Assembly (NCBI GenBank): GCA_017962375.1 | Contig: JAGCVJ010000018.1 | Location: 85,595-149,594, forward strand | Direction of reading: 5' to 3' | Length of the DNA stretch: 64,000 nucleotides | DNA from: Bacteroidales bacterium | GTDB lineage: Bacteria; Bacteroidota; Bacteroidia; Bacteroidales; UBA932 | Shown here: one piece after another, positions 9,010 to 64,000 of the stretch | How the letters are laid out: each line of letters starts with the position of its first letter | Numbering within the stretch: position 1 is the first letter of the stretch | The notes under the pieces: model-generated | The model's input: only the letters and a program-made list of their open reading frames with translations | What the model was told of the DNA's origin: nothing | The model's database searches: none | Program-made: the position numbers and the translations under genes

Positions 9010-9101
9010 GGTCTATGGGGTTTCTAAACTGCAAAGATAAAAATAATAGCAGGAATACTTTAACTTTCTTTTTTTGATTAAATTTGAAGATTGATAATGA
9101 T

Positions 9102-9974
9102 ATGGAAAAAAGATATTTCGAAATAGCCGGATATGTGGTTTCTCTTTCTCTGGAAGATTCAGCGCTTTGGGAGAGGCTGGGAAACTATAGCCCTTTTATA
9201 TGTCCAGAGTCTTCAAATGCTGTTTTGGAGGCCAGGCAGGTGGCTTCTGTTGGAGAAACTGAGCCGGAGCCGCTGCTTGTGTCCGCTGACGAGGGCTTCC
9301 CGAGAATTACAATAGGCAAGACTGTTTCGGGAAAATGGTTTTTCACCATGGCTCCGCTACACAACCGTCCTACCAGCTGCCTCTGCACGGCTTCTGAGGA
9401 TTTCTCCAGTGCGGAATTCGAGATTCTGGACAAGAGAAACGCCGTTTTTTCCATAAACAACGTGATGATGCTTCTTTATGCCCTCAGGACATCTTCCCTG
9501 GGCTGTCTGGAAGTTCATGCGTCGGTGATAATGAAAGGCGGAAAGGGAGTGGCTTTTCTGGGCAAGAGCGGCACGGGCAAGAGCACTCACAGCCGCATGT
9601 GGCTGGAGAACATAGAGGGAACGGAGCTTCTCAACGACGACAATCCTGTGGTCAGATGCCACGAAGACGGCCGGATCATTATCTACGGTTCTCCGTGGAG
9701 CGGCAAGACTCCTTGCTACAAGAAACTTTCAGTTCCTCTGGCAGGATTCGTGAGGATAATCCAGGCTCCGTACAACAAGATTCAGAGGCTGAGCGGTTTT
9801 CAGGCTTACGCCTGTCTTTATCCGTCCGTTTCCGCTTACCGTCCTGAACGCAAGGTGGCGGACGGCATTCACGACTCTCTCTCCAGGGTGGCGGCCTCAA
9901 TTCCTTTCTTTAATCTGGAATGCCTTCCTGATGGAGATGCAGCCAGGTTAAGCTTCAAGACAATCTATGGATAA
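9102..9974 (+). CDS. HPr-kinase-like P-loop protein of a PqqD/RiPP-type cluster
   Basis: 290 aa from ATG 9102. A TTG at 9084 is excluded because it overlaps the likely -7 promoter box TAAATTTG (9079-9086). The C-terminal half carries a Walker A motif FLGKSGTGKSTHSRMW, a downstream acidic pair LNDDNPVVR and the SPWSGKTP segment typical of HPrK-like kinases that occur beside PqqD proteins. The N-terminal 130 residues form a separate domain as in those proteins. Relatives in lasso and other RiPP clusters include peptide kinases, while others have no known substrate. It heads a run with an S24/S26 peptidase (8-nt overlap), PqqD and an ABC exporter, arguing for a role in peptide modification or maturation; the substrate is not identifiable. 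Confidence 0.75.
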   Translation: MEKRYFEIAGYVVSLSLEDSALWERLGNYSPFICPESSNAVLEARQVASVGETEPEPLLVSADEGFPRITIGKTVSGKWFFTMAPLHNRPTSCLCTASEDFSSAEFEILDKRNAVFSINNVMMLLYALRTSSLGCLEVHASVIMKGGKGVAFLGKSGTGKSTHSRMWLENIEGTELLNDDNPVVRCHEDGRIIIYGSPWSGKTPCYKKLSVPLAGFVRIIQAPYNKIQRLSGFQAYACLYPSVSAYRPERKVADGIHDSLSRVAASIPFFNLECLPDGDAARLSFKTIYG

Positions 9975-10392
9975 GAAGACAGTACCTAACGATATTCTGA
10001 TACCGCAGATTGGAGAACTGCTCTCCGAGGGGCGGGAAGTGGAGCTCAAGCCAAAGGGCTTCAGCATGCTCCCTTTCATACGCCCCGACAAGGACAGTGT
10101 GGTTCTCAAGAAGAAAGACTCGGTTTCCATAGGCGACATAGTTCTGGCGGACCTGAAAGGAAGATATGTTCTCCATAGGGTGATAAAAGAAGACGGGGAG
10201 AAGCTGACTCTGATGGGAGACGGCAATGTGAGAGGAACGGAAGGCTGCTCCAGAAAAGACGTTCTTGGAACCGTGGTGACAATAATGAAAAACGGAGTCA
10301 AGCCGGTGGTTCCGGGCAAGGGAAAGCTGTGGAAGACGCTGCTCCCTGCCAGAAGATACCTTCTTGCATTTTACAAGAGGGTGATTATGTAG
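9967..10392 (+). CDS. S24/S26-family signal-peptidase-like protein
   Basis: 141 aa. The catalytic Ser motif is KPKGFSMLPFIRP (box B of S26 peptidases), followed by VSIGDIVLADL (box D-like) and RYVLHRVI, where a His replaces the Lys of bacterial signal peptidase I, as in ER/archaeal-type enzymes. There is one weakly hydrophobic stretch near the C-terminus. It may process a leader or precursor peptide. It overlaps the kinase gene by 8 nt and precedes pqqD by 40 nt, in the order often seen in Bacteroidota PqqD-type clusters. Catalytic competence is plausible but untested. Confidence 0.75.
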   Translation: MDKKTVPNDILIPQIGELLSEGREVELKPKGFSMLPFIRPDKDSVVLKKKDSVSIGDIVLADLKGRYVLHRVIKEDGEKLTLMGDGNVRGTEGCSRKDVLGTVVTIMKNGVKPVVPGKGKLWKTLLPARRYLLAFYKRVIM

Positions 10393-10432
10393 TCTTATAG
10401 TAGCTTTATCGCGATAATAATAGTTTACAGAT

Positions 10433-10702
10433 ATGAAAATAAAGAAAGGTTTCGTTCTCAGGCAGCTTCTGGGAGAATATGTGGTAACAGGCGAGGGCCT
10501 GGAAAGGGTGAATTTCAACAAGATAATCTCCCTTAACGCTACTGCCGCCTATCTTTGGGAAGAACTCAAGGACAAGGAGTTTGACTCTCAGGCAATGGCT
10601 GATTTGCTAACCGCCAAATACGAGGTGGATCCTCAGACGGCTCTCTCCGATTCCGAGAAGCTCGCCCAGTCGTGGAAAGAAGCCGGACTGTTAGAAGACT
10701 AG
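10433..10702 (+). CDS. PqqD family protein (RiPP recognition element)
   Basis: 89 aa with the PqqD fold pattern: an N-terminal beta region (GFVLRQLLGEYVV), the conserved FNKIISLNATAAYLWEEL segment, and a C-terminal helical part (LTAKYEVDPQTALSDSEKL). PqqD-like domains bind leader peptides of ribosomally made, post-translationally modified peptides and deliver them to tailoring enzymes. It lies between the S24/S26 peptidase and the ABC exporter, whose start codon is 2 nt beyond its stop. A 12-bp palindrome TTATCGCGATAA (10406-10417) lies in the gap upstream. Confidence 0.85.
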   Translation: MKIKKGFVLRQLLGEYVVTGEGLERVNFNKIISLNATAAYLWEELKDKEFDSQAMADLLTAKYEVDPQTALSDSEKLAQSWKEAGLLED

Positions 10703-10704
10703 CA

Positions 10705-12348
10705 ATGAAGAGCATTTCGTCCTGTCTGGTTTACGCCTGGAGGCTCAGCCGCCCTTGCCGGTGGCGTATTCTGGTCAGTTTCCTAATCGGACTGTTCCAG
10801 ATTGCGGCTTCTTTGTCTTTCGTGTGGGTCAGCAAGGCTCTGGTAGACATAGCAACCAAGGAAAGGAGCGGCTCAATCTGGGTTTTCGCAGGCATTATGG
10901 CCGGCATTCTGGTGCTTCAGATTTCGCTGAGGCTCTTTGCCGCATGGTGGGAGAAGATGACTATGGTAAAGACGCAGAATCTTCTGCGCAAAAACCACTT
11001 CGCCCATATCCTTCACAGCACCTGGAACGGCAAGGAAACCTATCATAGCGCCGACGTTGTTAACCGTCTGGAGGAGGATATCAGGGTTGTCACCGAGCTT
11101 CTCTGCGTAAAGGTTCCTGATGTGGCCGTTACTCTCTGCCAGCTTATCGCGGCATCTGTATATGCTGTGATTCTGGCTCCGGGGCTTGTCTGGATGGTGA
11201 TTGTCTTGATGATTATTGCTCTGGTGGGAAGCCGCATGTTCTTCAAGAAACTCAGAAGCCTTACCAACGACATTCGCCGCAAGGACAGCCAGGCCCAGCA
11301 GGTTTTCCAGGACAATCTGAGGATGAGGTCTCTGGTGCTGATGCTTTTCGGCCCGTCCAAGGTAATAGGGAGGCTTGACGGCATCCAGACAGACATAGAG
11401 AAACTTACCCGCAAGAGGCTTGTCTACAACATCATAGCCAGGGGCTTTATGGCCTTCGGCTTTATGGGCGGCTATGCTGCGGCCTTCTTCTGGGGAGTGT
11501 TCGGAATCAATGCCGGAACGGTTACATACGGCATGATGACGGCCATGCTCCAGCTTGTAAGCCAGGTTCAGCGTCCTATTTCGGAAATCGGCCGTGCCAT
11601 ACCGGCTTTCATACACGCTGTCACTTCTATCGAGCGCCTGTCTGACATTACAGACCTTGAACTTGAGAAGCAGGGCAAGAACATCGTGTTTGACGGGGCT
11701 CCTTCCATCAGCCTGGCCAATGTGGACTTTCATTATCCCGATACCGGCGAGTATGTCCTCAAGGATTTCTCCTGCGAGTTTCCTTCAGGCACCCTGACCG
11801 CTGTAATGGGAGCTACCGGCGCCGGCAAGAGCACTCTTATGAGGATTGTGATGGGGCTTCTTAAGCCTTCTTCCGGCTCGGCGACGCTCTCCGGAACCAT
11901 AGGCGGAAAGGAACGCTCGTCAGACATTTCCGCTGCCACCAGAGAGAACTTCATGTATGTTCCCCAGGGCAACACCCTTCTTTCCGGCACTATCCGAGAA
12001 AACCTGCTTCTGGTTGATTCAGAGGCAGATGAGGACACAATGAAAAAAGCCCTCACCTTGGCGGAGGCGGGCTTTGTCTTTGATCTTCCTGAAGGAATTG
12101 ATACCAAGTGCGGAGAAGACGGAAGCGGTCTTTCCGAAGGCCAGTGCCAGAGGATAGCCATTGCAAGGGCGTTGCTGAAAAAAGGCGGGGTTCTGCTTCT
12201 GGACGAGGCTACTTCCGCTCTCGACAGCCAGACCGAACACCGCCTTCTTGAAAACATCTGCAAGACCTATCGCGGAGAAAAGACCATAATCTTCATTTCC
12301 CACAGAGAGGCCGTAGCAAGCTTTGCCGACAACATCATCAAGTTCTAG
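10705..12348 (+). CDS. ABC exporter, fused permease and ATPase
   Basis: 547 aa half-transporter. An N-terminal six-span membrane domain (about 15-300) is followed by an ATPase domain with Walker A GATGAGKSTLMR, signature GLSEGQCQR (Glu for the second Gly of LSGGQ), Walker B GVLLLDEATSALD and a switch His (FISHRE). No C39 peptidase domain is present at the N-terminus, so leader cleavage would depend on another protease, for which the adjacent S24/S26 protein is the candidate. The ATG at 10705 follows the pqqD stop by 2 nt; an in-frame GTG at 10672 inside pqqD is rejected. It is likely the export component of the PqqD cluster. Confidence 0.88.
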   Translation: MKSISSCLVYAWRLSRPCRWRILVSFLIGLFQIAASLSFVWVSKALVDIATKERSGSIWVFAGIMAGILVLQISLRLFAAWWEKMTMVKTQNLLRKNHFAHILHSTWNGKETYHSADVVNRLEEDIRVVTELLCVKVPDVAVTLCQLIAASVYAVILAPGLVWMVIVLMIIALVGSRMFFKKLRSLTNDIRRKDSQAQQVFQDNLRMRSLVLMLFGPSKVIGRLDGIQTDIEKLTRKRLVYNIIARGFMAFGFMGGYAAAFFWGVFGINAGTVTYGMMTAMLQLVSQVQRPISEIGRAIPAFIHAVTSIERLSDITDLELEKQGKNIVFDGAPSISLANVDFHYPDTGEYVLKDFSCEFPSGTLTAVMGATGAGKSTLMRIVMGLLKPSSGSATLSGTIGGKERSSDISAATRENFMYVPQGNTLLSGTIRENLLLVDSEADEDTMKKALTLAEAGFVFDLPEGIDTKCGEDGSGLSEGQCQRIAIARALLKKGGVLLLDEATSALDSQTEHRLLENICKTYRGEKTIIFISHREAVASFADNIIKF

Positions 12349-52700: not shown

Positions 52701-53225
52701 ATGAAAAGAATAATTCTCATCGCGATTGCATCATTGCTGGTTTCCGCTTCTGTTAATGCCCAGACTCCTCAGAAGCAGCAGGGCCTGAAAAAGGTTTACA
52801 ATGAAGACATCAACCAGCTTGAGCAGATAGACAAAGCCGTTTCTCAGGCCAAGAAGGAAGGCAAGTATGTGATTTGCCAGCTGGGCGGCAACTGGTGCCC
52901 GTGGTGCCTGAAATTTGCTGACTTCATCACCAAAGACGCTGAAATCAGCAATTTCATCAGCGACAACTTCGTTTATATCCACGTGAACTACAACCCAAGA
53001 ATGGCCAAGAGCAAGGACGAGTCTGTAGTCAAAAGATCAGCTGAGCTGATGAAACGCCTTGACAATGCAGGCCGTTTCGGCTATCCTGTGTTCATTGTCC
53101 TTGACAAAGGCGGCAAAGTCCTTCACATCCAGGACTCCAGCTTCCTTGAAGAGGGCGAAGGCTACAACAAGGACAAAGTGATCCGTTTCTTCAAGAACTG
53201 GACTCCCAAAGCCGTGGGCAAATAA
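52701..53225 (+). CDS. Thioredoxin-like secreted protein (CPWC)
   Basis: 174 aa from ATG 52701, chosen because it gives a clean signal peptide (MKRIILIAIASLLVSASVNAQ); an in-frame ATG at 52665 lies just after the promoter box. The active site is GGNWCPWCLKFADF, a Cys-Pro-Trp-Cys redox motif, followed by a thioredoxin fold with the cis-Pro in RFGYPVFIVLDKGG. It probably acts in the periplasm on disulfides. Its stop codon shares a base with the next start (TAATG), linking it to the J-domain gene although base composition changes sharply there. Confidence 0.88.
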   Translation: MKRIILIAIASLLVSASVNAQTPQKQQGLKKVYNEDINQLEQIDKAVSQAKKEGKYVICQLGGNWCPWCLKFADFITKDAEISNFISDNFVYIHVNYNPRMAKSKDESVVKRSAELMKRLDNAGRFGYPVFIVLDKGGKVLHIQDSSFLEEGEGYNKDKVIRFFKNWTPKAVGK

Positions 53226-54061
53226 TGAAAGAACGTCATATTGTTTTATATTCTGGATCAGAAGAACTTCTGAAAGAGTTAGAAACCCTCAAACGCAAAT
53301 CTTCCGAACTCTTTCTTCAGTTGGAATATATGGAGCATCAAGAAGCTCCTAGGCTTTCTTATATATATCAATATGAAACGAGGATAGGCACGTTGGAGTT
53401 TGAATTGCTTCTTGCAGAAGTCAATATATCTCTTCTAAATCTTGCAATATCTCTCCGTCAGATAGCTATAAACCTAGGTAAAACAGCTGATGACAAAGAG
53501 ATTAATAAACAAGTAGAAGCAGAAAAGGAAAAATTCAAGGCTAAAATTGAGGATAAAGAATCAGAAATCAAATCAGCTAAGGAATCTGCCAAATCTTCTG
53601 TTTTAAATCCTGATGAGAGCCAGGAACTCAGAAAACTTTATCGCAAGATTGCAAAAGCGTTGCATCCCGATATGAATCCTAAAGTGTCTCAAAAGGGGAA
53701 ACGATTATTCATTAAGGCAACAGAAGCTTATCATAAAGGTGATTTAAACATACTTAGGCAAATAGTTCTTTCTCTTAAAAATAATGAAATAATTGATGGT
53801 GGTTCAGGCGATTGTTCTGAGATTTCAGAAGCCGAAATTATTGCACAGATTGAAAAGATTAAAAAGACTATCAAGGATTTTGAAACAAGGATAGCTTATC
53901 TAAATACCCAGTTCCCTTTTATTTATCGAGAAAAACTTAAAGATGAACACTGGATTAATCAACGGCGATCGGAGCTTGAAGAAAAAATTGCCAAGGCAAA
54001 CAAGAAGATCGAAGAACTCAATAATTATTTAAAGATATTGGAATCATGGACAAAGGAATAA
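53225..54061 (+). CDS. J-domain protein with coiled coils
   Basis: 278 aa. Residues about 130-180 are a DnaJ-type J domain with HPD at 147-149 (LYRKIAKALHPDMNP, then FIKATEAYHKGD), which would stimulate an Hsp70 ATPase. It is flanked by predicted coiled coils: about 90-125 (KQVEAEKEKFKAKIEDKES) and 205-275 (RRSELEEKIAKANKKIEEL). The J domain is internal rather than N-terminal and there is no zinc-finger or client-binding domain of DnaJ. The sequence is AT-rich compared with the core genes, suggesting later acquisition. It overlaps the HIRAN gene by 16 nt. Function unknown. Confidence 0.8.
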   Translation: MKERHIVLYSGSEELLKELETLKRKSSELFLQLEYMEHQEAPRLSYIYQYETRIGTLEFELLLAEVNISLLNLAISLRQIAINLGKTADDKEINKQVEAEKEKFKAKIEDKESEIKSAKESAKSSVLNPDESQELRKLYRKIAKALHPDMNPKVSQKGKRLFIKATEAYHKGDLNILRQIVLSLKNNEIIDGGSGDCSEISEAEIIAQIEKIKKTIKDFETRIAYLNTQFPFIYREKLKDEHWINQRRSELEEKIAKANKKIEELNNYLKILESWTKE

Positions 54062-54441
54062 TCCCGCTAACTCCGGAATTGATGGCTCTTATTAGTGGCA
54101 AAGATATCTCCGAAGTGCTTCCTTTCAAAAGGGAAATATTCATTCTTAATGATTTTGTGGCGGGGACTTCATTCTCTGAGAGGATAGGTGAAGTGTTGGA
54201 TGAATTGAAACCAGGGATTATGATGACCCTTCGCCGTCATCCTGAGAATGAAATAGATAATAATGCTATAGGTATTTATTATAAGGATATTCAAATAGGG
54301 TGGGTGCATAGGCGGTATAATACAGTGATAGCACGTCTTATGGATTCAGGCAAGATGTTTACTTGCAAGATTGTTGAAAAAGATACTTCTAATCCAGAGT
54401 GGCCTCGAATAGATGTTAATATTTACATGTTAGACATATAA
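54046..54441 (+). CDS. Stand-alone HIRAN domain protein
   Basis: 131 aa. The N-terminal 30 residues are followed by a HIRAN domain: FILNDFVAGTSFSERIGEVLDEL, then MMTLRRHPENEIDNNAIGIYY, IQIGWVHRRYNTVIARLMDSG. HIRAN domains bind DNA 3' ends or damaged/stalled DNA and are usually fused to helicases; isolated bacterial versions are poorly characterised. The gene is AT-rich, is translationally overlapped with the J-domain gene and is followed 13 nt later by an ADP-ribosylglycohydrolase gene. Confidence 0.8.
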   Translation: MDKGIIPLTPELMALISGKDISEVLPFKREIFILNDFVAGTSFSERIGEVLDELKPGIMMTLRRHPENEIDNNAIGIYYKDIQIGWVHRRYNTVIARLMDSGKMFTCKIVEKDTSNPEWPRIDVNIYMLDI

Positions 54442-54454
54442 GCATAGTTATATA

Positions 54455-55654
54455 ATGAAAAATAGCAGGCCAACAGACAAGGATAAAGACCGTGCGCTGG
54501 GCTGTATGGTTGGCGGGGCCGTGGGAGACGCCCTGGGCTATGCCATTGAGTTTGACAGCTGGCAGGACGTTGAGCGCAAGTTCGGTCCTCGTGGAATTAC
54601 CCGTTATCAACTTGACAGATGGGGTGTTGCCCGTATCTCAGATGACACCCAGATGTCTCTTTTCACTGCTATCGGCATTCTTCTGGGAATGACCAGAGGC
54701 TATATGAGAGGCATTATGGCCCGTATAGATACCTATTGCCACTGGACATATCTGGACTGGCTCCACACGCAGCAGTGGACTGCCAGAAAAGAAGACGAGA
54801 GAGTTGATTCCTGGCTGATGGATATTCCCCAGCTCTACTCAAGCCGGGCTCCCGGCCACACCTGTCTTACCGCCCTGATGGCTTTGGAGAAGGACCAGAC
54901 TCCGGTCAACGACAGCTGCGGCTGCGGCGGAGTAATGCGCACAGCGCCGCTTGCCATTCTTGATTTCCTCCACAGCTATGCTTCCGGAGATATACTTTTT
55001 TGCGATATGTGTGCCGCTGAGGCAGCCAGGCTGACTCACAAGCACCCGCTTGGCTTCATTCCTTCCGCTCTTCTAAATCATATTCTGATGATGATTCTGG
55101 GTGGAGATGCAGATGGTGAAGACACCCAAGCCCGCCTCGCCTCTTTGATTCAAAAGTCCGCGGAAGATATTGGTTCAATACAGTCTGCTCCAGACGATAA
55201 CAAGGCCTACAAAGAACTCTGGCCTAATCATATAGCAACCCAGCAGGACATAATCAAGAAGGCCATAGACCTTGCCGGAGGAGACACTCTGGACCACACA
55301 GCCATTGAGTCCATCGGCGGCGGCTGGACCGGCCACGAGGCTCTTGCCATTGCGGTCTATAGTGCAGTAAAGCACTGCAATTCTTTTGAAGACGCAATCA
55401 TAAGCAGCGTAAACCACTCCGGCGACAGCGACTCCACCGGTGCCGTCTGTGGCAACATCATTGGCTGTCTTCTTGGCCGCAGTGCAATTCCGGCCCACTT
55501 TACCCAGAACCTGGAACTCCTGGACATCATAGAAGAAATTGCCACAGACCTTTACACAGGCTGCATCATCAGCGATCACGATCCTGTAGAGACTCCAGAA
55601 AAGCAACGCTGGGAGCAGAAATACTGCCACCACCGCTACCCTCATACTCGCTGA
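54455..55654 (+). CDS. ADP-ribosylglycohydrolase family protein
   Basis: 399 aa of the DraG/ARH family. Mg-binding motifs are visible: GAVGDALGYAIEF, the RISDDTQMSLFTA loop at about 60-72, and near the C-terminus NHSGDSDSTGAVCGNIIG, whose acidic residues hold the two metal ions. It would remove ADP-ribose from modified proteins or nucleic acid. Base composition is closer to the core genome than that of the two genes before it. It is the last gene of the apparent thioredoxin/J-domain/HIRAN/ADP-ribosylglycohydrolase run; a weak hairpin follows. Confidence 0.9.
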   Translation: MKNSRPTDKDKDRALGCMVGGAVGDALGYAIEFDSWQDVERKFGPRGITRYQLDRWGVARISDDTQMSLFTAIGILLGMTRGYMRGIMARIDTYCHWTYLDWLHTQQWTARKEDERVDSWLMDIPQLYSSRAPGHTCLTALMALEKDQTPVNDSCGCGGVMRTAPLAILDFLHSYASGDILFCDMCAAEAARLTHKHPLGFIPSALLNHILMMILGGDADGEDTQARLASLIQKSAEDIGSIQSAPDDNKAYKELWPNHIATQQDIIKKAIDLAGGDTLDHTAIESIGGGWTGHEALAIAVYSAVKHCNSFEDAIISSVNHSGDSDSTGAVCGNIIGCLLGRSAIPAHFTQNLELLDIIEEIATDLYTGCIISDHDPVETPEKQRWEQKYCHHRYPHTR

Positions 55655-55670
55655 ACTTCATTTGTTAATT

Positions 55671-55686
55671 CAGGCTAATGAGCCTG
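55671..55686 (+). terminator. Possible weak terminator after the ADP-ribosylglycohydrolase gene
   Basis: CAGGCT-AATG-AGCCTG forms a 6-bp perfect stem, followed by TAAATACTTTTCATTT, only a loose T tract. The rest of the gap to 55842 holds the inverted-repeat promoter described next and otherwise nothing recognised. Confidence 0.4.
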
Positions 55687-55699
55687 TAAATACTTTTCA

Positions 55700-55735
55700 T
55701 TTGACAAAACTTGTCAAAGCGGCCTTTTATTTTTG
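55700..55735 (+). promoter_or_regulatory. Inverted-repeat operator plus -7 box upstream of the PD-(D/E)XK-like gene
   Basis: TTTGACA (55700-55706), 5 nt, TGTCAAA (55712-55718), 9 nt, TATTTTTG (55728-55735). The same layout with the same spacings recurs at 57904-57939 before cas9. The inverted repeat is centred near -33 relative to the predicted start, so a bound protein would cover the -33 region. Confidence 0.65.
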
Positions 55736-55841
55736 CCGTTGAAAATTTAGAAAAAGTCAAGAAAAATCTAGGATAATTCAGTTTTATTATTGAACCTTTG
55801 TGGTGCAATTCAAAGTAAACATTAACCAATAAATTACGCGT

Positions 55842-56861
55842 ATGAACATTATTGAAATCGTTGAAAAGACATTTGGCGAGTATTGCGGAGAGTTTTCCAA
55901 AATACTTGGAGAAGACACTGAAAATGGTGGTTTTGGTTTTAAGCCGTGGCTTCAGGCCTGGAATGACAAAAAAAGGCGGAGCATACACGAATCCAATCAG
56001 GTATATAAATTCATGGAAGCATATAAAGAAACGGCCCCAAATCCTTCCAAAGTGCTTACTTGGATGGAACTTCCGGTTATTATTGGTAGAGTACAACCTC
56101 GCACTCATCATATTGACGGTTTTATCGTAGATAACGAACGGAAAATTCTTTTCTTTCTTGAAGCCAAGCGTTTGTCAAGGAAGAGCAACTATGAGAGTTT
56201 GGATTGTGATGTTGAGCTTCTATATGACTTTAGACGCTATGAGTATTCAAATTTGATAAGCAAAAGTTGCGATAGTTATAAAGGGTTGAACCTGCTTGAA
56301 TATGATGCCTTTGCAATTTGTCTTGTTGACATATGGAAAGACAAAAGTTCGTGGACAAAAGAAAAGGTTGAAAAGTGGGGTGCTTATGATGATTTTTCAA
56401 GTAACCCTGGATATACGTTGAAAAATGGATTGAAGGAAGTTTATCCTGGCTACTTCCATGGTTATTATCTTATGCCATTTTTTAACAGCAAAAAATATTT
56501 TCACGATATATCAGGACGAAAGCCCCGTAAAAGGATAGACGAAACACTGTTGATTTATGATGATGAGTTTGCTTTTGAGGTGTGTTTGGCTGATACTTAC
56601 TATTGCGGGTCCGATCCTGACGATGAAGAATCTCTAATAGTAGATAATATTGAAAAAAGAGATTATGACATTTGCGAAGATTATAAAAATGCACAGGACT
56701 ACAAGAAGGCTGTCAAGAATTATATGATGGTTCAGTTGGGAGTTTCTGAAGAAGTTGCAGAGAATAAAATCAGGAGGAACGATGCTACTCTTGATGACTG
56801 CTGGAAAGACAAACTATCAGTTCCCGCTGCAGCTACAGGGCTGTTGCACAATTTCTTGTAA
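55842..56861 (+). CDS. Unrecognised protein with PD-(D/E)XK-like signature
   Basis: 339 aa, cytoplasmic by lack of signal. I do not recognise the family. The segment HHIDGFIVDNERKILFFLEA then KRLSR has Asp92 and Asp97, a hydrophobic strand, then E107-A-K109, the spacing of the PD-(D/E)XK nuclease core seen in restriction enzymes and other defence nucleases. A later acidic region (YYCGSDPDDEESL) and several Tyr-rich stretches follow. The gene is AT-rich and monocistronic, with its own operator-like promoter shared in layout with cas9. It could be a restriction-like nuclease, an anti-phage effector or an unrelated protein with a chance motif; the nuclease reading is inference. Confidence 0.6.
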   Translation: MNIIEIVEKTFGEYCGEFSKILGEDTENGGFGFKPWLQAWNDKKRRSIHESNQVYKFMEAYKETAPNPSKVLTWMELPVIIGRVQPRTHHIDGFIVDNERKILFFLEAKRLSRKSNYESLDCDVELLYDFRRYEYSNLISKSCDSYKGLNLLEYDAFAICLVDIWKDKSSWTKEKVEKWGAYDDFSSNPGYTLKNGLKEVYPGYFHGYYLMPFFNSKKYFHDISGRKPRKRIDETLLIYDDEFAFEVCLADTYYCGSDPDDEESLIVDNIEKRDYDICEDYKNAQDYKKAVKNYMMVQLGVSEEVAENKIRRNDATLDDCWKDKLSVPAAATGLLHNFL

Positions 56862-56928
56862 TAAAAGAGCACCACCTTGCTACCCCTTTACCCATCTCCC
56901 CATCTGTTTTCCAATGCATTCAGTATTT

Positions 56929-57318
56929 TCAAAATAAACAGACCCAACCAAACTTCCTGGAAAGATCCTTTATGAGATTTCTGTCTTGGACCGGAAGGTG
57001 GATTGTTGCTGTAAGTTGTTTTGTCTGCCTCTTGAGGATATTAGCAGAATCAATGTTGTACTGAGTTTGCAAATTCATCCATAAATCCGCTGGAATGTCA
57101 AGAGCTTTTTCAAGTTTGACAGCCATATTCAGAGATATTGAGCGCTTGCCGTTTATTGTCTGACTTAGGATAGATGTTTTAATGCCAGTAATATCGGCAA
57201 GCTGTTTCTGTGTCATTTTTCTTTCCGCCAACTCGTCTTTTATCAATTCTCCAGGGTGTGTTGCAATAAAAGGAGTCGTGCTCTCATCAATAATGTTATT
57301 TGGTGTTATTCTATTCAT
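56929..57318 (-). CDS. higA: HigA-like antitoxin (XRE family)
   Basis: 129 aa. A HigA-type N-terminus (ATHPGELIKDELAERKMTQKQLADITGI, STLS-type recognition helix KTSILSQTINGKRSISLNMAVKLEKALD) forms an XRE helix-turn-helix, followed by the LDIPADLWMNLQTQYN segment that is diagnostic of HigA antitoxins. It would neutralise the HigB-like toxin encoded immediately upstream (8-nt overlap) and repress the shared promoter. The C-terminal 40 residues are not conserved in the motif and may contact the toxin. Confidence 0.88.
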   Translation of the reverse strand: MNRITPNNIIDESTTPFIATHPGELIKDELAERKMTQKQLADITGIKTSILSQTINGKRSISLNMAVKLEKALDIPADLWMNLQTQYNIDSANILKRQTKQLTATIHLPVQDRNLIKDLSRKFGWVCLF

Positions 57319-57628
57319 AATGCTTTGATATTTCTTTAATTAAAATGATGTTGATGATCCCGGCTTCTCCAGCTCTGCTTTTTAATAGCAATCGGTATTG
57401 ATCATTTATCCATACGGTTTCTATGTTACTCAAATTCCCCTTCTTTTTCTCATAGTGCAGACTCTTGATTCTAAACAAGGATTCAATTCTTGTTGCTAAT
57501 TTCAGATAGTTCACAACTTTTACGTAGCGAGTTATGATATCTTTCGGCAATTTGTTATAAGTTTTGTCTTGAGTAGTTCCGTTGCTGTATAACTCCCACA
57601 GGCTTTCACTTTCAAATTCTATTGTCAT
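57311..57628 (-). CDS. higB: HigB-like RelE-superfamily toxin
   Basis: 105 aa, basic, with the RelE/HigB outline: an N-terminal MTIEFESESLWELYSNG, helices around LPKDIITRYVKVVNYLKLATRIESLF, a core strand set SLHYEKKKGNLSNIETVWINDQYRLLLKSR, and a short C-terminus. HigB toxins cleave mRNA on translating ribosomes. The toxin-first gene order is characteristic of higBA. A perfect TTTG-N19-TATATTTG promoter and an inverted repeat lie just upstream. Confidence 0.82.
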   Translation of the reverse strand: MTIEFESESLWELYSNGTTQDKTYNKLPKDIITRYVKVVNYLKLATRIESLFRIKSLHYEKKKGNLSNIETVWINDQYRLLLKSRAGEAGIINIILIKEISKHYE

Positions 57629-57638
57629 TTTATTTCTG

Positions 57639-57680
57639 CAAATATAATATTTGTTAATTAATTATCAAAAATGATAACTA
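57639..57680 (-). promoter_or_regulatory. higBA promoter and operator
   Basis: On the minus strand TTTG (57669-57666), 19 nt, TATATTTG (57646-57639) is a full promoter. TTATCA-AAAA-TGATAA (57662-57677) is a palindrome covering the -33 element, extendable to about 9 bp per arm with one mismatch (57659-57680 region). A HigA dimer is the obvious candidate to bind it. Confidence 0.75.
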
Positions 57681-57903
57681 TTTTTGAGTCTATGGCATTT
57701 ATATCGAGACAAACTTATATCCATTCCTTTTTTCAATCCAAATCTTATCCGGATATAATCGATTATAATCGTTTGATGATTTATAAAACGGATTAGAGGT
57801 CTGAACTATAGTAAGTTAAAATTACTATTTCTATTCAGTTCGTTCTTGAAAAGGAGGCTATCGTTTCTTTTACTAATTGAATTCAGGGGTAATTATGTTA
57901 TTC
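57681..57903. other. Intergenic region with stacked palindromes
   Basis: No gene recognised. It contains TATCCGGATA (57746-57755), overlapping TATAATCGATTATA (57754-57767, perfect 14-bp palindrome) and ATAGTAA-N7-TTACTAT (57808-57828). These may be protein-binding sites between higBA and the CRISPR locus or merely AT-rich coincidence. An AAGGAGG at about 57851 has no start codon at suitable distance. Confidence 0.4.
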
Positions 57904-57939
57904 TTTGACAGAAATTGTCAAAAGGCTCCAATATCTTTG
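57904..57939 (+). promoter_or_regulatory. Inverted-repeat operator plus -7 box, probable cas9 promoter
   Basis: TTTGACA (57904-57910), 5 nt, TGTCAAA (57916-57922), 9 nt, TATCTTTG (57932-57939). It has the same geometry as at 55700-55735. It is the only TAnnTTTG box on the plus strand that I find between here and cas9. A transcript starting near 57946 would cross the tracrRNA gene in antisense and reach cas9 after about 160 nt. Confidence 0.65.
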
Positions 57940-57956
57940 CGCGCGAAGGTCCTTGC

Positions 57957-58037
57957 CAATAAAAACTCCCACCGAAGCGGGAGTTTAGGTAAAAACCTTC
58001 GGCATATAGCCTTATTGTGATAAGATGTAGAATCTTA
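57957..58037 (-). ncRNA. tracrRNA of the type II-C system
   Basis: Transcribed on the minus strand. The anti-repeat is 58034-58014: GATTCTACATC, TTAT, CACAAT pairs with the first 21 nt of the CRISPR repeat as 11 bp, a 4x4 internal loop and 6 bp. Downstream come a small GGC-TATAT-GCC hairpin (nexus-like), an AGGT-TTTT-ACCT hairpin and a terminator hairpin of 10 bp closed by a C(UUCG)G tetraloop, ending in Ts (about 57965-57957). The predicted length is about 80 nt, and the start coincides with the anti-repeat. Ends are predicted from sequence only. Confidence 0.88.
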
Positions 58038-58042
58038 TAACA

Positions 58043-58073
58043 CAAAGGTAGCAAACTTTGTTGATAAAGCAAA
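58043..58073 (-). promoter_or_regulatory. tracrRNA promoter
   Basis: On the minus strand TTTG (58073-58070), 19 nt, TACCTTTG (58050-58043) is an exact Bacteroidota-type promoter, placing transcription start about 6 nt before the anti-repeat. Confidence 0.8.
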
Positions 58074-58108
58074 TTAATGTTAATTTTATAGACAAATATT
58101 TATTGATT

Positions 58109-61100
58109 ATGTCTAGAATACTTGGCCTTGATTTAGGAACCAACAGTATAGGTTGGGCTATTGTTGATACACAACAGGATGGATCCTACAAACTATATGA
58201 CAAAGGTGTATCTATCTTCCAGGAGGGAGTTAAAATTGAGAAAGGAAATGAATCTTCAAAAGCAGCAGAACGTACTGGATACAGGTCTGCCAGAAGAAGA
58301 ATATTTCGTAGAAGATTAAGAAAAATTGAGACGTTGAAGGTGTTGGTAGATTTAGGTTGGTGTCCTTATTTATCTGCAGAACAGTTGTCAGACTGGCGTT
58401 ATCGTAACATTTATCCAAAGATTGACGAGTTTATGCTTTGGCAGCGTACGAACGATAATGAGCAAAAAAATCCATATTATTATCGTCATCTTGCGTTAAC
58501 CCAAAAGCTTGATTTGTCCAAAAAAGAGGATAAATACATCTTAGGCCGTGTTATGTATCATCTTTCTCAGCGAAGGGGCTTCCTTAGCAATAGAAAAGAG
58601 AATACAAAAGAATCTAATGGCAAGGTTAAAGATGACATATCCGCTTTGAATAAAGCTCTTGAAGAAAGTGGCTGCAAGTATATCGGTGAGTATTTCTATA
58701 CTATCTACGGAAAAGAAAGGATTCGTGCTCACTATACTTCTAGACAACACTACAAAGATGAATTTGATGCCATTTGCAAAATTCAAGGAATTTCTGACTC
58801 AATCAAGAAACAACTCGAAAGGGCAATCTTCTTCCAAAGACCTCTGAAATCGCAGAAGGGCTCTGTCGGCCATTGCAAGTTTGAGACTAAGAAAACCAGA
58901 TGTCCTGTTTCTCATCCTCGATTTGAGGAATTTCGTATGTGGTCTTTCATCAATAACATCAAGGTTAAGACTCCATACGATGAAGATATGCGTCCGTTGA
59001 ATGCTGAGGAAATAATTAAAATTCTTCCTCTCTTCTTCCGTAAAAGCAAGAAGCAGTTCCAGTTTGAAGATATAGCCAAAGCCTTGTCTGCGAGAGGGCA
59101 GTATGCTTTTTACAAAGATCAAGATGAAAAGCCGTATCGTTTTAACTACAAGATGTTTACATCTGTATCAGGTTGTCCTGTCATTGCCGGTCTTAAAGAA
59201 ATCTTTGGAGACAACTGGGAAGAGGGTATCACTTCCAAGTATTTAGACACGAAAGGCAAGACTAAAGAGCAGATTGTAAATGATATCTGGCATGCTATGT
59301 TTTTCTTCAGCGATGATGAAAGACTTAGAGCCTGGGCTAAGGAAAAACTGCAGTTATCTGAAGAGGATGCCCTGAAATTCAGCAAGATCCCTGTCGGCAA
59401 TGATTATACCTCTCTCAGCTTAAATGCAATCAACAAGATACTTGCTTTCTTGCGTAGGGGATTCAAATATTCTCACGCAGTCTTTTTGGCCAATATCTCG
59501 AGCATTGTTCCTAAAGAAATTATTTCCAACCCCGAAAATCGTAAAATCATAGAACGAGAGATAGGTGTTATCGTTGATAATCCTTCGCCTACAAAAGAAA
59601 CAACAGAGCAGAGGATCAAAGAATTCCTGATGGACAACTTTGATCTGGGCGCTGCTCATTATGAGAGGCTCTATCATCCTTCTATGATTGATGTTTATGC
59701 TAAATCTAACACAGGTTTCCTAGGCTCTCCGAGAACGAACTCTTTCAAGAATCCTATGGCTATGAGGGCTCTGTTTAGATTAAGGGCTCTTGTGAACGAT
59801 TTGATAAAGAATGGCGAGATAGACAAAGACACTAAAATCCACATTGAATACAGCCGCTCTCTTAATGATGCCAACAGGCGCAAAGCTCTTGAAAGATATC
59901 AGCGAGATAGGGAGAAGAAGAACAACGAGTTCAGAGAAGAGATTATTAAACATTTCCGTGAACATGGCATTGATGCGCAACCGACACAGACGGATATTGA
60001 AAAGTATCGTTTATGGGAAGAGCAAGGGCATATATGTCTTTACACAGGAGAGAGAATAGCTCTTTCTCAGTTCCTTGGCTCTAATCCGCAATACGACATT
60101 GAGCATACTATTCCAAGAAGCTTGGGAGGAGAAGACGCTTTGGAAAACAAAACTCTTTGTAACAACAAGTTTAACAGAGATGTAAAGAAAAACAAGATTC
60201 CTTCTCAATTGTCAAATCATCAGGAAATTCTTATCCGGCTTGAACCAGTAAAAGAAAGGATTGAGGAGCTTAGGAAACAGATAGAAAAACTGAAGGGTGG
60301 CAGTGCTGCAACCAAAGAGGTGCGAGACGCTATTATTCAAAAGCGCAGGCTTCTGGAATATGAAAGGAATTATCTTTCTGACAAGTACGGCAAATTCCTG
60401 ATGAAGGAGGTTCCTTCCGACTATAGAAAGAATCAGGATGTTGACAACAGCATTATATCTAAGTATGCACGTCCTTATTTGAAGACCATCTTTACTCACA
60501 TATACACAGTCAAGGGTTTGACCACATCACAATTCCGCAAGATGTGGGGCCTCCAGGAGGACGAAAAGAAAGACCGTAGCACTTTCCTCAATCATACGGT
60601 AGATGCAATCGTAATAGCTTGCATCGGTCCTAAGGAATACTCCGAGATGGCTCACTATTACAAAGCCGACGAAGAGTTCAGATGGTTCGGAAAGAATCGT
60701 CCTACTATGCCTAAACCATGGACCACCTTTACTGAAGATGTTCAAAATATAAACAGGGAGGTTCTTGTATCTCATTATACACCTGATAATATCAAGAAGC
60801 GTACTTATAAATTGTTGAGAAAGCGCGGCGAAATACAGAAAGGTCCGGACGGTAAGCCATTGATGACAAAGGGTGATACTGCCCGTGGCGCTCTTCATCT
60901 TGAGACCTTCTACGGAGCTATACAGAGAGGTGATGAAATCAAATATGTTGTACGAAAGCCTCTTTCATCTATGGAGAAAACCGATGTTTCAAAGATTGTT
61001 GATGATGTTGTCCGCCAAAAAGTTGAGCAGGCGATAGAGGAGAAAGGCTTCAAAGACGCAATGGCTGGCCCTGTCTGGATGAATGAGGAAAAGGGAGTTC

Positions 61101-61708
61101 AAATCAAAAAGGTTAGAATCTTTACTCCTTCGGTTACTAATCCAATTCATCTTAAAGATCTGAGAGACAAGTCACGGTTTGACTACAAGCAGCATTTGAA
61201 TGTTGCCAATGACAGAAACTATTGTATGGGTATCTATGAGGGAACTGATTCAAAAGGCAAGACAAAACGATCTTTTAAACTGGTGAATAATCTTAACGCT
61301 GTCGGTGCTGTCAATGAAGGTGTTTCTTTCAATATGATTCCGAATGAAGACAGCAATGGATACCGTCTTAAACATATTCTAAAGATTGGAACAATGGTTC
61401 TTCTCTATGAAAACACCCCAGATGAAATCTATGAAGCAAACCAGGAGGAATTGACCAGAAGACTTTATAAGGTGGTGGGTTTATCAACCTTGATTATTCA
61501 GAAAAAGTATGAATATGGAAGTGTCACTTTACGTTACAACCAAGAAGCTAGACCTTTAGCAGAGGTTAAACCTAAGAATGGTGTTTTCGTACAAGGTGAA
61601 GGGCTTCGTCCTGCAATAAGTATTCTTCACTCTCAAATGAATGCTCTTGTAGAAGGCTTTGACTTTACTCTTTCTCCTTCAGGAAAGATACATTTCATAA
61701 GGCGATGA
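58109..61708 (+). CDS. cas9: Cas9 endonuclease, type II-C
   Basis: 1199 aa from ATG 58109 (MSRILGLDLGTNSIGWAI); an upstream in-frame TTG at 58058 is unlikely. RuvC-I Asp8 lies in LGLDLGTNSIGW; an Arg-rich bridge helix follows (TGYRSARRRIFRRRLRKIE). RuvC-II Glu580 lies in IHIEYSRSL, the HNH motif YDIEHTIPRSLGG has His666 with NKTLCNNKFNRD downstream, and RuvC-III has His829 and Asp832 in NHTVDAIVIA. All catalytic residues are intact. With crRNA and tracrRNA it cleaves matching DNA. No csn2 or cas4 is present, which with cas1-cas2 defines subtype II-C. The gene is AT-rich relative to the core. The PAM is not deducible here. Confidence 0.97.
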   Translation: MSRILGLDLGTNSIGWAIVDTQQDGSYKLYDKGVSIFQEGVKIEKGNESSKAAERTGYRSARRRIFRRRLRKIETLKVLVDLGWCPYLSAEQLSDWRYRNIYPKIDEFMLWQRTNDNEQKNPYYYRHLALTQKLDLSKKEDKYILGRVMYHLSQRRGFLSNRKENTKESNGKVKDDISALNKALEESGCKYIGEYFYTIYGKERIRAHYTSRQHYKDEFDAICKIQGISDSIKKQLERAIFFQRPLKSQKGSVGHCKFETKKTRCPVSHPRFEEFRMWSFINNIKVKTPYDEDMRPLNAEEIIKILPLFFRKSKKQFQFEDIAKALSARGQYAFYKDQDEKPYRFNYKMFTSVSGCPVIAGLKEIFGDNWEEGITSKYLDTKGKTKEQIVNDIWHAMFFFSDDERLRAWAKEKLQLSEEDALKFSKIPVGNDYTSLSLNAINKILAFLRRGFKYSHAVFLANISSIVPKEIISNPENRKIIEREIGVIVDNPSPTKETTEQRIKEFLMDNFDLGAAHYERLYHPSMIDVYAKSNTGFLGSPRTNSFKNPMAMRALFRLRALVNDLIKNGEIDKDTKIHIEYSRSLNDANRRKALERYQRDREKKNNEFREEIIKHFREHGIDAQPTQTDIEKYRLWEEQGHICLYTGERIALSQFLGSNPQYDIEHTIPRSLGGEDALENKTLCNNKFNRDVKKNKIPSQLSNHQEILIRLEPVKERIEELRKQIEKLKGGSAATKEVRDAIIQKRRLLEYERNYLSDKYGKFLMKEVPSDYRKNQDVDNSIISKYARPYLKTIFTHIYTVKGLTTSQFRKMWGLQEDEKKDRSTFLNHTVDAIVIACIGPKEYSEMAHYYKADEEFRWFGKNRPTMPKPWTTFTEDVQNINREVLVSHYTPDNIKKRTYKLLRKRGEIQKGPDGKPLMTKGDTARGALHLETFYGAIQRGDEIKYVVRKPLSSMEKTDVSKIVDDVVRQKVEQAIEEKGFKDAMAGPVWMNEEKGVQIKKVRIFTPSVTNPIHLKDLRDKSRFDYKQHLNVANDRNYCMGIYEGTDSKGKTKRSFKLVNNLNAVGAVNEGVSFNMIPNEDSNGYRLKHILKIGTMVLLYENTPDEIYEANQEELTRRLYKVVGLSTLIIQKKYEYGSVTLRYNQEARPLAEVKPKNGVFVQGEGLRPAISILHSQMNALVEGFDFTLSPSGKIHFIRR

Positions 61709-61712
61709 TAAT

Positions 61713-62597
61713 ATGCTAAAGAAAGCCATTTATTTCGCGAATCCGGCAAAACTATCACTGAAAAACGGTCAACTGAATGTTGAATATAAAGATGATTCAA
61801 AACCGAACCGTTCTGTTCCAATTGAAGATTTGGGCTATGTGATTGTTGTCAACAACCAGATATCTCTCAGTATTCCACTGATGAATGCATTGGTTGACAA
61901 TAATACTTCGTTAATTATTTGTGGCAGTAACCAGATGCCTCATTGTATGCTTCAACCACTTGAAGCCAATACTGTTCAGGCAGAAATTTATCGTGCACAG
62001 ATAGAGGCAAGTCTCCCTCTTAAGAAAAACTTATGGAAGCAAGTTGTGGAAGCCAAGATAAAGAACCAATCAAGCCTTCTTAGAAAGCTTGGAAAAGACG
62101 GAGACTTACTGGTTCCTTATTATAGAAATGTCAAAAGTGGAGATTCAGACAATAAAGAAGGTGCAGCTGCTCGGATTTACTGGAAACAATTGTTCGGAGA
62201 GGATTTCATCCGAAATAGAGAGGGTGGAGATCCTAATGCTATCTTGAATTACGGGTATGCAATCTTACGTGCGGCTGTGGCTAGAGCTTTGATGGGTTCA
62301 GGGCTCTCTCCTGCTTTTGGGATATTTCATAGAAACAGATACAATGCTTTTCCTTTGGCAGATGACATAATGGAGCCTTACCGTCCTTTTGTTGACGATT
62401 GTGTATACAAAATCATAACATCCGGAGAATGTGAGTTGAATACAAAAGTCAAGAGCGAGTTGGTAAAAGTTCTATTTTGCGATACATCTTTCCCTAAAAT
62501 GAAGCGCCCTTTGGATGTGGCATTGTCTATGACTACAGCCTCTCTTGCCAAGTGTTTTTCGGGAGAAGTAAAGTCTATAGTATATCCATCAATATGA
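61713..62597 (+). CDS. cas1: Cas1 integrase
   Basis: 294 aa. Conserved metal-binding residues are visible: Glu in NKEGAAARIYW, His in GIFHRNRYNAF and the acidic residues in PLADDIMEPYRPFVDD. Cas1 with Cas2 inserts new spacers at the leader end of the array. It starts 4 nt after cas9 and overlaps cas2 by 4 nt (ATGA), so cas9-cas1-cas2 are one operon. Confidence 0.96.
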   Translation: MLKKAIYFANPAKLSLKNGQLNVEYKDDSKPNRSVPIEDLGYVIVVNNQISLSIPLMNALVDNNTSLIICGSNQMPHCMLQPLEANTVQAEIYRAQIEASLPLKKNLWKQVVEAKIKNQSSLLRKLGKDGDLLVPYYRNVKSGDSDNKEGAAARIYWKQLFGEDFIRNREGGDPNAILNYGYAILRAAVARALMGSGLSPAFGIFHRNRYNAFPLADDIMEPYRPFVDDCVYKIITSGECELNTKVKSELVKVLFCDTSFPKMKRPLDVALSMTTASLAKCFSGEVKSIVYPSI

Positions 62598-62932
62598 GCG
62601 AAATACGCTTGAACGAATATAGGATTATGTGGTTGTTTGTTTTCTTTGATTTACCGACAAACACGAAAACCGAACGCCGTAATGCAGCCAAGTTCCGCAC
62701 ATTGCTTATGCGTGACGGCTTTTCAATGATGCAGTTTTCTGTATATGTCCGCAATTGCGCTTCTCATGAAAGCCTACAGGTTCATACAAAAAGAGTAAAG
62801 GGTATTCTTCCGCCAAGTGGAAACATAAGTCTTTTAAGCGTTACGGACAAACAATATGGAGATATGCAAAACTACTGGGGTAAAATTGAGGGTTTAAAGA
62901 ACGCTGAATCCCAGCAATTGGAGTTATTTTGA
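62594..62932 (+). CDS. cas2: Cas2
   Basis: 112 aa from ATG 62594, overlapping the cas1 stop. The ferredoxin-like core has the Asp in WLFVFFDLPTNTKTERR, the FRTLLMRDGFSMMQFSVYVRNC strand-helix-strand, and LLSVTDKQYGDM. Cas2 dimer bridges two Cas1 dimers in the spacer integration complex. An in-frame ATG at 62552 lies inside cas1 and is rejected. Confidence 0.95.
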   Translation: MSEIRLNEYRIMWLFVFFDLPTNTKTERRNAAKFRTLLMRDGFSMMQFSVYVRNCASHESLQVHTKRVKGILPPSGNISLLSVTDKQYGDMQNYWGKIEGLKNAESQQLELF

Positions 62933-63047: not shown

Positions 63048-63873
63048 GTTGTGGTTTGATGTAGAATCAAGATAGATTACAACATTCCTGCCTGTTTAAT
63101 TGCTGCCACCTTAGTTGTGGTTTGATGTAGAATCAAGATAGATTACAACTGCACATGATGATGCCATAGTCATTTACACGTTGTGGTTTGATGTAGAATC
63201 AAGATAGATTACAACGCAGCCATAGATTTCAGGTTCTCCAAGACCGTTGTGGTTTGATGTAGAATCAAGATAGATTACAACTACAAAGGAGGTTTATCTA
63301 CTCCCGTGGTAGTTGTGGTTTGATGTAGAATCAAGATAGATTACAACTTTTTACGAATCCTTATAGTAAGAGTCTTAGTTGTGGTTTGATGTAGAATCAA
63401 GATAGATTACAACCCAGGGGCTGAAGGAAAGACACCAGATTTAGTTGTGGTTTGATGTAGAATCAAGATAGATTACAACGGAGTTCGGAGATAGGCAGAA
63501 GATGCGTATGTTGTGGTTTGATGTAGAATCAAGATAGATTACAACGTAGTCACACATGATATTAAACGCATGGGGTTGTGGTTTGATGTAGAATCAAGAT
63601 AGATTACAACCAATCATAACCACGAACCTTTCTTTGGAGGGTTGTGGTTTGATGTAGAATCAAGATAGATTACAACCAAAAGGGTAATCCTGTTTTGAAC
63701 GTCATAGTTGTGGTTTGATGTAGAATCAAGATAGATTACAACGACAGGCCAGCGAGACAATGTTTTGACAAGTTGTGGTTTGATGTAGAATCAAGATAGA
63801 TTACAACGTTCGCATAAATATTGAAGGTTAAAAGTAAGTTGTGGTTTGATGTAGAATCAAGATAGATTACAAC
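63048..63873 (+). CRISPR. CRISPR array, 13 repeats and 12 spacers
   Basis: The 36-bp repeat begins GTTGTGGTTTGATGTAGAAT and ends GATAGATTACAAC; all 13 copies appear identical. Repeats start at 63048, 63114, 63180, 63246, 63312, 63378, 63444, 63510, 63575, 63641, 63707, 63772 and 63838. Spacers are 30 nt except two of 29 nt (63546-63574 and 63743-63771). The repeat ends GTTGT/ACAAC are inverted. The first 21 nt pair with the tracrRNA anti-repeat, so the crRNA is read from the plus strand. The last repeat is not degenerate and non-repeat sequence follows it. Confidence 0.99.
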
Positions 63874-63894
63874 TACATAATAAACTTTGGTGAT

Positions 63895-64000
63895 ATGACA
63901 AACATTGAAATTGCAAAACAGGTACTTGGTGAAGATTGCGAGGAGTATTGCACCCTCGTGGAGGAGCCGCCTTACAAGGGTTACGATGTTGTAGCTTGTA
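63895..64000 (+). CDS. Possible gene after the array (3' end outside window)
   Basis: ATG at 63895 opens a frame of 35 codons to the window edge without a stop (MTNIEIAKQVLGEDCEEY, later EEPPYKGYDVV). It begins 21 nt after the last repeat. No homology is recognised and there is no SD. The codon pattern looks protein-like, but the fragment is too short to be sure. Confidence 0.45.
   Translation, partial: MTNIEIAKQVLGEDCEEYCTLVEEPPYKGYDVVAC

Follow-up and report, generated by a model that had tools for sequence, protein, structure and literature searches.

A palindromic promoter common to cas9, recA and umuDC in a Bacteroidales bacterium, with a DriD-like WYL protein as its candidate activator

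Bacteroidales are a dominant order of the gut and are reported to be without Bacteroidetes LexA proteins; the control of their DNA-damage response has been an open question. A stretch of 64,000 nucleotides from a bacterium of this order (GenBank assembly GCA_017962375.1, contig JAGCVJ010000018.1, positions 85,595 to 149,594; the window in what follows) bears on it. Two genes in the window, cas9 of a clustered regularly interspaced short palindromic repeats (CRISPR) locus and a gene for a protein resembling PD-(D/E)XK nucleases, are preceded by the same palindrome, TTTGACA-N5-TGTCAAA, which can also be written TTTGAC-N7-GTCAAA, and by a -7 box, TAnnTTTG, 9 bp downstream of it. What reads this element, and what else does it control? 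The explanation preferred here, with a probability of about two in three, is that both sites are activator-dependent promoters of an SOS-type regulon under a homodimeric, DriD-like protein of the WYL family, called WYL1 below.

The palindrome and the -7 box are exact at both places, 55700-55735 (TTTGACAAAACTTGTCAAAGCGGCCTTTTATTTTTG) and 57904-57939 (TTTGACAGAAATTGTCAAAAGGCTCCAATATCTTTG), just as the initial annotation of the window had read them. If up to three mismatches are allowed, there are two copies of the full pattern in the window; dinucleotide shuffles contain it 0.01 times on average, and none of 100 reaches two. The arms, the length of the 9-bp spacer and the -7 box are common to the two sites, but the flanks differ, with identities of 21/60 in the 60 bp upstream, 12/60 in the 60 bp downstream and 2/9 in the spacer. 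Thus the two sites represent a conserved architecture and not a duplication, which agrees with the earlier view that no recent duplication had taken place.

The initial annotation had also proposed a scan of the genome and its relatives for further copies and the genes behind them, and such a scan places the element before recA, umuDC and other genes. The window's genome (G000, 2.17 Mb, 87% complete) was searched for the palindrome alone, with no -7 box required and with the reversed pattern as a control. It contains four exact palindromes, all four with TAnnTTTG at exactly 9 bp, and the control gives none. Behind them are recA (C11:55578; C numbers denote contigs), a 24-codon peptide gene (C4:54745), the PD-(D/E)XK-like gene and cas9(-cas1-cas2). 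Four more places appear if up to three mismatches are allowed. A site with one mismatch precedes umuDC on C8 (UmuD matches NF007621 with an E-value of 3.4e-48), one with two mismatches precedes the gene of a 1024-residue AddB-like nuclease on C1, and a symmetric three-mismatch variant, ATTGCCA..TGGCAAA, precedes that of a DnaQ-like exonuclease on C17. The remaining place, C10:49873, is a poor three-mismatch site upstream of a nitroreductase-WYL operon; it is off the fixed spacing and is kept solely as a possible autoregulatory site. The pattern had been noticed nowhere else, which is true inside the window but not in the genome, with its two further exact sites and the weaker ones. There is hardly any doubt that the sites form one promoter class.

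Two conserved peptides are encoded under this promoter. The peptide of 24 residues, MKRTxRMILAFxGIGLIDYIENYR, lies directly behind it at C4:54745 and at five other loci. Pairwise comparison of the six sequences gives 106 synonymous and 9 non-synonymous single-base codon differences, which indicates strong purifying selection. The peptide is hydrophobic, and our guess would be a damage-induced membrane or division-control peptide. The other peptide, of about 35 residues (MNxYNxLFxSEIxAFIEETI..), is found at nine loci either alone under the promoter or as the first gene of umuDC; 12 sequences show 522 synonymous and 158 non-synonymous differences.

Among the relatives, the pattern with at most one mismatch is present in 20/37 genomes of the genus, the window's own included (a match in G034, counted here, looks like chance), and in 0/24 genomes from other families; the reversed control gives 0 in all 61. 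The spacing was measured in 39 genomes of the genus with the core palindrome TTGACA-N5-TGTCAA, TAnnTTTG being permitted 0-30 bp downstream (31 spacings). There are 57 matches in 19/39 genomes, 53 of them at 10 bp from the core, and none in the reversed control. The four exceptions are two opposite-strand reads of palindromes already counted, one match at 11 bp and one at 6 bp, the latter before a WYL operon.

A recA match is present in 38 genomes of the genus, and the recA promoter was inspected in 37 of these. The site is at the same place in 16 of them, with a score of 18/18 in eight, 15 in five, and 17, 16 and 13 in one each; the best scores in the other 21 are 10-13/18 and are located elsewhere. 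The 16 genomes are called clade A here. Their RecA is 93-100% identical to that of the window's genome, compared to 84-91% in the others. Of 26 umuD loci 21 were parsed, and the site scores 18/18 in 9/10 clade-A loci (10/18 in G031) and is found in 0/11 others. Because recA and umuDC, the genes of an error-prone polymerase, together mark the SOS response, the regulon is read as SOS-type.

The cas9 family PF13395 is represented in 15/39 genomes of the genus. Leaders were compared at 15 cas9 loci (13 from the genus and two from Paludibacteraceae, the latter fetched by the pattern itself), of which 13 were parsed. All six parsed clade-A genes have an 18/18 site, but these are not independent because four of the six leaders are nearly identical in sequence. 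Of the five genes outside clade A, three lack the site and two have it at 17/18 and 15/18. Compared to the leader of G000, those of G020, G003, G021 and the two Paludibacteraceae are identical at 15-19 of 19 positions in the palindrome, at 15-19 of 60 upstream and at 9-14 of 40 downstream. In three genomes outside clade A (G021, G024 and G005) the site, or a TTTGTCA-like variant of it, stands before cas9 or a Cas3-like gene and not before recA or umuD. Either CRISPR loci may have brought the promoter into these genomes, or the genomes may have a different core motif.

The exact form of the motif is not order-wide, since it occurs solely in the own genome in an order-wide sample of 393 genomes and in six (own included) of a family sample of 99. 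The promoter pattern alone, scanned across the 84,980 species genomes of genome_contigs, retrieves at least 114 stretches, and titles were seen for 80. Among the matches listed there are records titled Cryptobacteroides, Alistipes, Tidjanibacter, Rikenellaceae and Paludibacteraceae, as well as single odd titles (such as Fibrobacter, Eubacteriaceae and Parabacteroides), which could be accidental matches. The four stretches from viral contigs, three of which share one context and have a different-looking center, were treated as chance. By eye, and among the matches listed, some records with the titles Alistipes and Rikenellaceae have a recA-like gene as the first one behind the motif. Other first genes at the pattern loci encode Cas3-like HD/DEAD proteins (two sites), Cas6, an SbcD-like phosphoesterase, HsdM, a Bro-N (DinD-like) protein, HIRAN proteins, a weakly CoiA-like protein and an SLFN-g3 helicase. 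At 23 of 148 distinct sites no open reading frame of at least 60 residues is within reach, and many downstream genes belong to no known family.

Such a gene list could also belong to a regulator without any connection to DNA damage, such as a metabolic factor or a sensor of phages, with recA and umuDC as incidental members. At several loci cas9, Cas3-like, HsdM or unknown genes are indeed the first under the motif, and G021 and G024 have cas9 sites without recA sites. Nevertheless, a single small genome combines recA and umuDC with AddB-like and DnaQ-like genes, which constitute a damage-response core, sites before recA and umuD are found again across clade A, and the recA-like genes of the Alistipes and Rikenellaceae records are under the motif as well. 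A regulator of this kind is therefore very improbable, and the promoter class very probably defines a DNA-damage regulon. The initial annotation had suggested one regulator and perhaps a defence regulon; the single regulator is supported, but the set is better named a DNA-damage regulon containing CRISPR.

How the element works is suggested by its geometry. Of 122 non-redundant sites, themselves selected by the pattern, 87% have A at the center and 96% have C or T immediately before the second arm, and the stretch 6-12 bp upstream of the sites is rich in A/T. The site therefore has a direction. We take TTTG-N19-TAnnTTTG to be the promoter consensus of Bacteroidetes. In the promoters described here the -33 position is inside the palindrome and has no TTTG; there is no TTG at spacings 16-18, and spacings 19-23 are excluded by the letters of the palindrome. 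The palindrome had been described as centered near -33. In fact 19 bp separate its center from the TA of the downstream -7 box, which puts the center near -30, although the -33 position is covered. The fixed spacing and the missing -33 box, which a plain repressor would not need, point to an activator that would touch the polymerase from one place, and the geometry suits an activator that stands in for the -33 contact.

The same regulon might instead be controlled by a LexA-like (S24) repressor of the non-canonical Bacteroidetes type, inactivated by RecA filaments, with the palindrome as its operator. The strictly fixed spacing fits an activator better, but the content of the regulon is SOS-like, and the accessible text of PMC8565304 describes an SOS regulon with recA and umuDC in the same phylum, under LexA proteins whose sites also have N5 between short palindromic arms and vary between groups, with other divergent palindromes for paralogs. 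S24 frames of 208-250 residues, long enough for a helix-turn-helix, are present in 6/39 genus genomes, four with the motif (G032, G020, G026 and G018) and also G002 and G011. Neither of the two known motifs, CTAA-N5-TTAG and GGA-N5-TCC, fits TTGACA-N5-TGTCAA, however, and the same accessible text reports both regulator groups to be absent from Bacteroidales. The S24 proteins of the window's own genome are UmuD and a 141-residue signal-peptidase-like protein with no visible helix-turn-helix. Frames of 208-250 residues are missing from the motif genomes G000, G003, G010 and G027, among others, these genomes being incomplete (the own 87%, G003 96% complete), and a search for an S24/LexA-type regulator found none in a consistent set of motif genomes. 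The S24 match in the window itself (9967-10392) is signal-peptidase-like, has no visible helix-turn-helix and adjoins PqqD-like and ABC genes (names by eye). A LexA-like repressor is thus unlikely.

A candidate for the activator is encoded next to the motif. Among the 114 listed loci that were fetched by the DNA pattern alone, 23 contain a homolog of WYL1, a protein with a winged helix-turn-helix (wHTH), a WYL and a WCX domain. The site is at the stop codon of the WYL1 gene (-3 to +14 nt) in 11 loci and 121-128 bp after the stop in two. It precedes the start by 60 bp in two loci and by 272 bp and 421 bp in one each, is divergent from the gene at 77 bp in one, and is further off in five. Judged from sequence, WYL1 is the best candidate for a protein that would bind the site and activate transcription from it, and it is likely that it does so as DriD does.

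DriD of Caulobacter crescentus is a homodimeric WYL activator of an SOS-independent DNA-damage response. According to the accessible text of PMC12340889, it binds asymmetrically to the consensus ATACGAC(X)7GTCGTAT, which has a constant distance to the -10 and covers a poor -35, after single-stranded DNA has been bound by the WYL domain; the introduction of PMC11804915 adds recA to the genes that it regulates. DriD was taken as the model mainly because of the agreement in site geometry, which was noticed after the motif had been fixed. In both systems GAC/GTC half-sites are 7 bp apart (the sites here being selected by pattern, and WYL1 their presumed ligand), the distance to the -10 or -7 box is fixed, and a poor or absent -35 or -33 element is overlapped. 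As far as the available text on DriD goes, both regulons also contain DNA-damage genes and a gene of a division inhibitor, a putative one here. The outer bases are different, TTTGAC..GTCAAA compared to ATACGAC..GTCGTAT, and the -7 box is the TAnnTTTG of Bacteroidetes. Furthermore, the regulon here includes umuDC and cas9-cas1-cas2, and Caulobacter also has a canonical SOS system, whereas none was found here.

The domain order of WYL1 is that of DriD: wHTH, three-helix bundle, WYL and WCX. In the domain scan HTH_11 is above the cut-off, and WYL (21.7 of 21.8 bits) and WCX (19.4 of 23.9) are below it. The AlphaFold model has a predicted local distance difference test (pLDDT) score of 76 and a predicted template modelling score of 0.51 and is weak in residues 61-120; the helices between wHTH and WYL (residues 79-136) have a pLDDT of about 36-63 over most of their length. 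Foldseek places DriD (8tp8_D) at the top with an E-value of 1.2e-12, at an identity of about 15%, and in VIA-align DriD, PafBC and BrxR tie. Among PDB sequences, the WYL1 profile has its best matches in PafBC (2.2e-6) and PafC (1.8e-5); WYL1 or WYL2 as single sequences match nothing there.

A different activator of the same regulon would leave WYL1 linked to the motif merely as a target. It could be a second WYL protein, WYL2, a PafBC-like heterodimer of WYL1 and WYL2, or an unrelated regulator. The genes of WYL1 and WYL2 are close together in 18/20 fetched genus loci, WYL proteins are many, with at least one in 39/39 genus genomes, and the N5 center is asymmetric. PafBC of mycobacteria is a heterodimeric WYL activator that works by sigma adaptation with a -26 motif (PMC11804915, accessible text), and it resembles the system proposed here in being triggered by single-stranded DNA and in taking the place of the -35 contact. 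The word palindrome is absent from the available text of that paper, however, whereas the arms here are palindromic, as is expected for a homodimer, and WYL2 is present in 0/114 of the listed pattern-only loci, compared to 23/114 for WYL1. Another activator is consequently improbable, if somewhat less so than a LexA-like repressor.

WYL1 might also control its own gene. In nine clade-A genomes the nitroreductase-WYL1 operon is itself preceded by palindromes with at most two mismatches, whose distance to a -7 box is 16 or 6 bp and not 10. Such a palindrome is about half a helical turn off the activating position, which would be compatible with autorepression. No palindrome precedes this operon in G018, G029, G036 and G033.

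In the mechanism proposed for WYL1, the homodimer would sense single-stranded DNA through its WYL domain and, having done so, would occupy TTTGAC-N7-GTCAAA across the -33 region. From this one fixed position it would bring RNA polymerase to promoters with a good -7 box but without a -33 box. DNA damage would thus turn on recA, umuDC, the AddB-like nuclease, the exonuclease, the short peptides, the PD-(D/E)XK-like gene and the whole cas9-cas1-cas2 operon, so that Cas9 and Cas1-Cas2 would rise with damage. The sequences themselves show the common promoter with its constant geometry, the genes behind it, its distribution in relatives and the linkage of WYL1 with the motif; site binding and activation by WYL1, the signal and the rise of the Cas proteins are inferred.

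WYL-family regulators have been tied to phage defence before. BrxR, CapW and Sll7009 regulate defence loci, and Sll7009 represses a CRISPR I-D locus (PMC9122601, accessible text). BrxR and Sll7009 are described in that text as repressors of a defence locus, however, whereas WYL1 would be one chromosomal activator of repair and CRISPR genes. The available text of PMC8565304 mentions neither CRISPR nor cas9. No such regulon is described in the titles and beginnings of abstracts among the matches listed on SOS control in Bacteroidales, on CRISPR under SOS or WYL control and on DriD, a literature that lacks most subscription papers and every bioRxiv preprint, so that this is no proof of novelty.

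The odds seem about even that in some Bacteroidales a WYL activator sensing single-stranded DNA has replaced LexA as the master of the SOS response, with Cas9 interference and Cas1-Cas2 spacer acquisition inside it, so that CRISPR immunity is damage-induced, and that Cas3-like and Cas6 loci, which belong to other CRISPR types, came under this promoter independently. If the proposed mechanism is true, the DriD/PafBC class of activators that sense single-stranded DNA would be represented in a further phylum, with an SOS-like regulon of larger size. For the damage response of Bacteroidales there are now a motif, a list of targets and a named candidate regulator. In these uncultured gut bacteria cas9 has the same switch as the DNA-repair genes, suggesting that CRISPR defence is raised upon DNA damage. 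Spacer acquisition feeds on break ends, and the presence of recA, the AddB-like nuclease and cas1-cas2-cas9 under one promoter type suggests that DNA breaks and CRISPR are directly connected.

Table. Features around the two palindrome promoters, in window coordinates
Feature	Position	Strand	Remarks
Palindrome before PD-(D/E)XK-like gene	55700..55718	+	One of the genome's four exact palindromes
-7 box TATTTTTG of PD-(D/E)XK-like gene promoter	55728..55735	+	Exactly 9 bp downstream of palindrome
PD-(D/E)XK nuclease-like gene, regulon member	55842..56861	+	339 residues; motif D92/E107/K109 and core fold, weak
Palindrome TTTGACA-N5-TGTCAAA before cas9	57904..57922	+	Exact match
-7 box TATCTTTG of cas9 operon	57932..57939	+	One of two plus-strand TAnnTTTG in 57600-58115 (other: 57679)
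Predicted tracrRNA: anti-repeat, then hairpin and T run as terminator	57958..58042 (ends approximate)	-	From fold of 57955-58049
Ordinary Bacteroidetes-type promoter of tracrRNA, TTTG-N19-TACCTTTG, without palindrome	58043..58073	-	From sequence
cas9	58109..61708	+	Start codon read from sequence; TIGR01865, E 3.7e-135
cas1	61713..62597	+	Begins 4 bp after cas9
cas2	62552..62932	+	Frame overlaps cas1; true start may be further in
CRISPR array	63048..63873	+	13 repeats of 36 bp; window ends 127 bp past array

The CRISPR locus of the window (Table) is of type II-C. Such loci consist of cas9-cas1-cas2, an array and a trans-activating CRISPR RNA (tracrRNA) encoded upstream of cas9 on the opposite strand. 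All of these are present here, the tracrRNA as a prediction, without csn2 or cas4; from cas9 to the array, and upstream as far as 48000, there is no sign of additional cas genes. The locus differs from the ordinary type in that cas9 has the damage-type promoter and no visible ordinary one: the plus strand of 57600-58115 has no TTTG-N17-23-TAnnTTTG. Owing to the close packing of the three genes, the promoter probably drives the adaptation genes cas1 and cas2 too, cas1 presumably being in the same transcript as cas9. The tracrRNA region (57965-58050) forms a duplex of -28.2 kcal/mol with the repeat, compared to a mean of -14.7 and a lowest value of -22.8 for 200 shuffled repeats; Rfam has no match in 55600-58200, the tracrRNA included. 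As the predicted tracrRNA is on the opposite strand, the cas9 leader (57941-58111) would be antisense to the whole of it, and cas9 induction could interfere with the tracrRNA, or the reverse.

The protein encoded behind the first site has a D...ExK motif on an α-β-β-β-α-β core, as PD-(D/E)XK nucleases do, although the support is weak and Pfam, NCBIfam and PADLOC give no match. A PDB sequence search returned viral surface proteins at E-values of 0.095 and above, weak chance matches that were ignored. In G032 and G010 the last 70 residues of the corresponding protein are similar and the N-terminal part is different, an apparent exchange of cassettes under the damage promoter. The open reading frame right after the CRISPR array (63890-64000) resembles, by eye, the inner part of this alternative protein, and homologs of the tail of the PD-(D/E)XK-like protein are found in short frames elsewhere in G000 (two places on C13).

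Before the first site, three genes in a row occupy 53225-55654, the first weakly DnaJ-like and the others for a HIRAN protein and an ADP-ribosylglycohydrolase, and no site was found before them in the window. In other lineages HIRAN genes are directly under the motif, as is, at one locus, a gene resembling the weakly DnaJ-like one. Between the two sites, genes of a HigA-like antitoxin and a HigB-like toxin occupy 56929-57628 on the minus strand. Far upstream, at 9084-12348, kinase-like, S24 signal-peptidase-like and PqqD-like proteins and an ABC transporter (names by eye) are encoded together, perhaps as a peptide-maturation locus.

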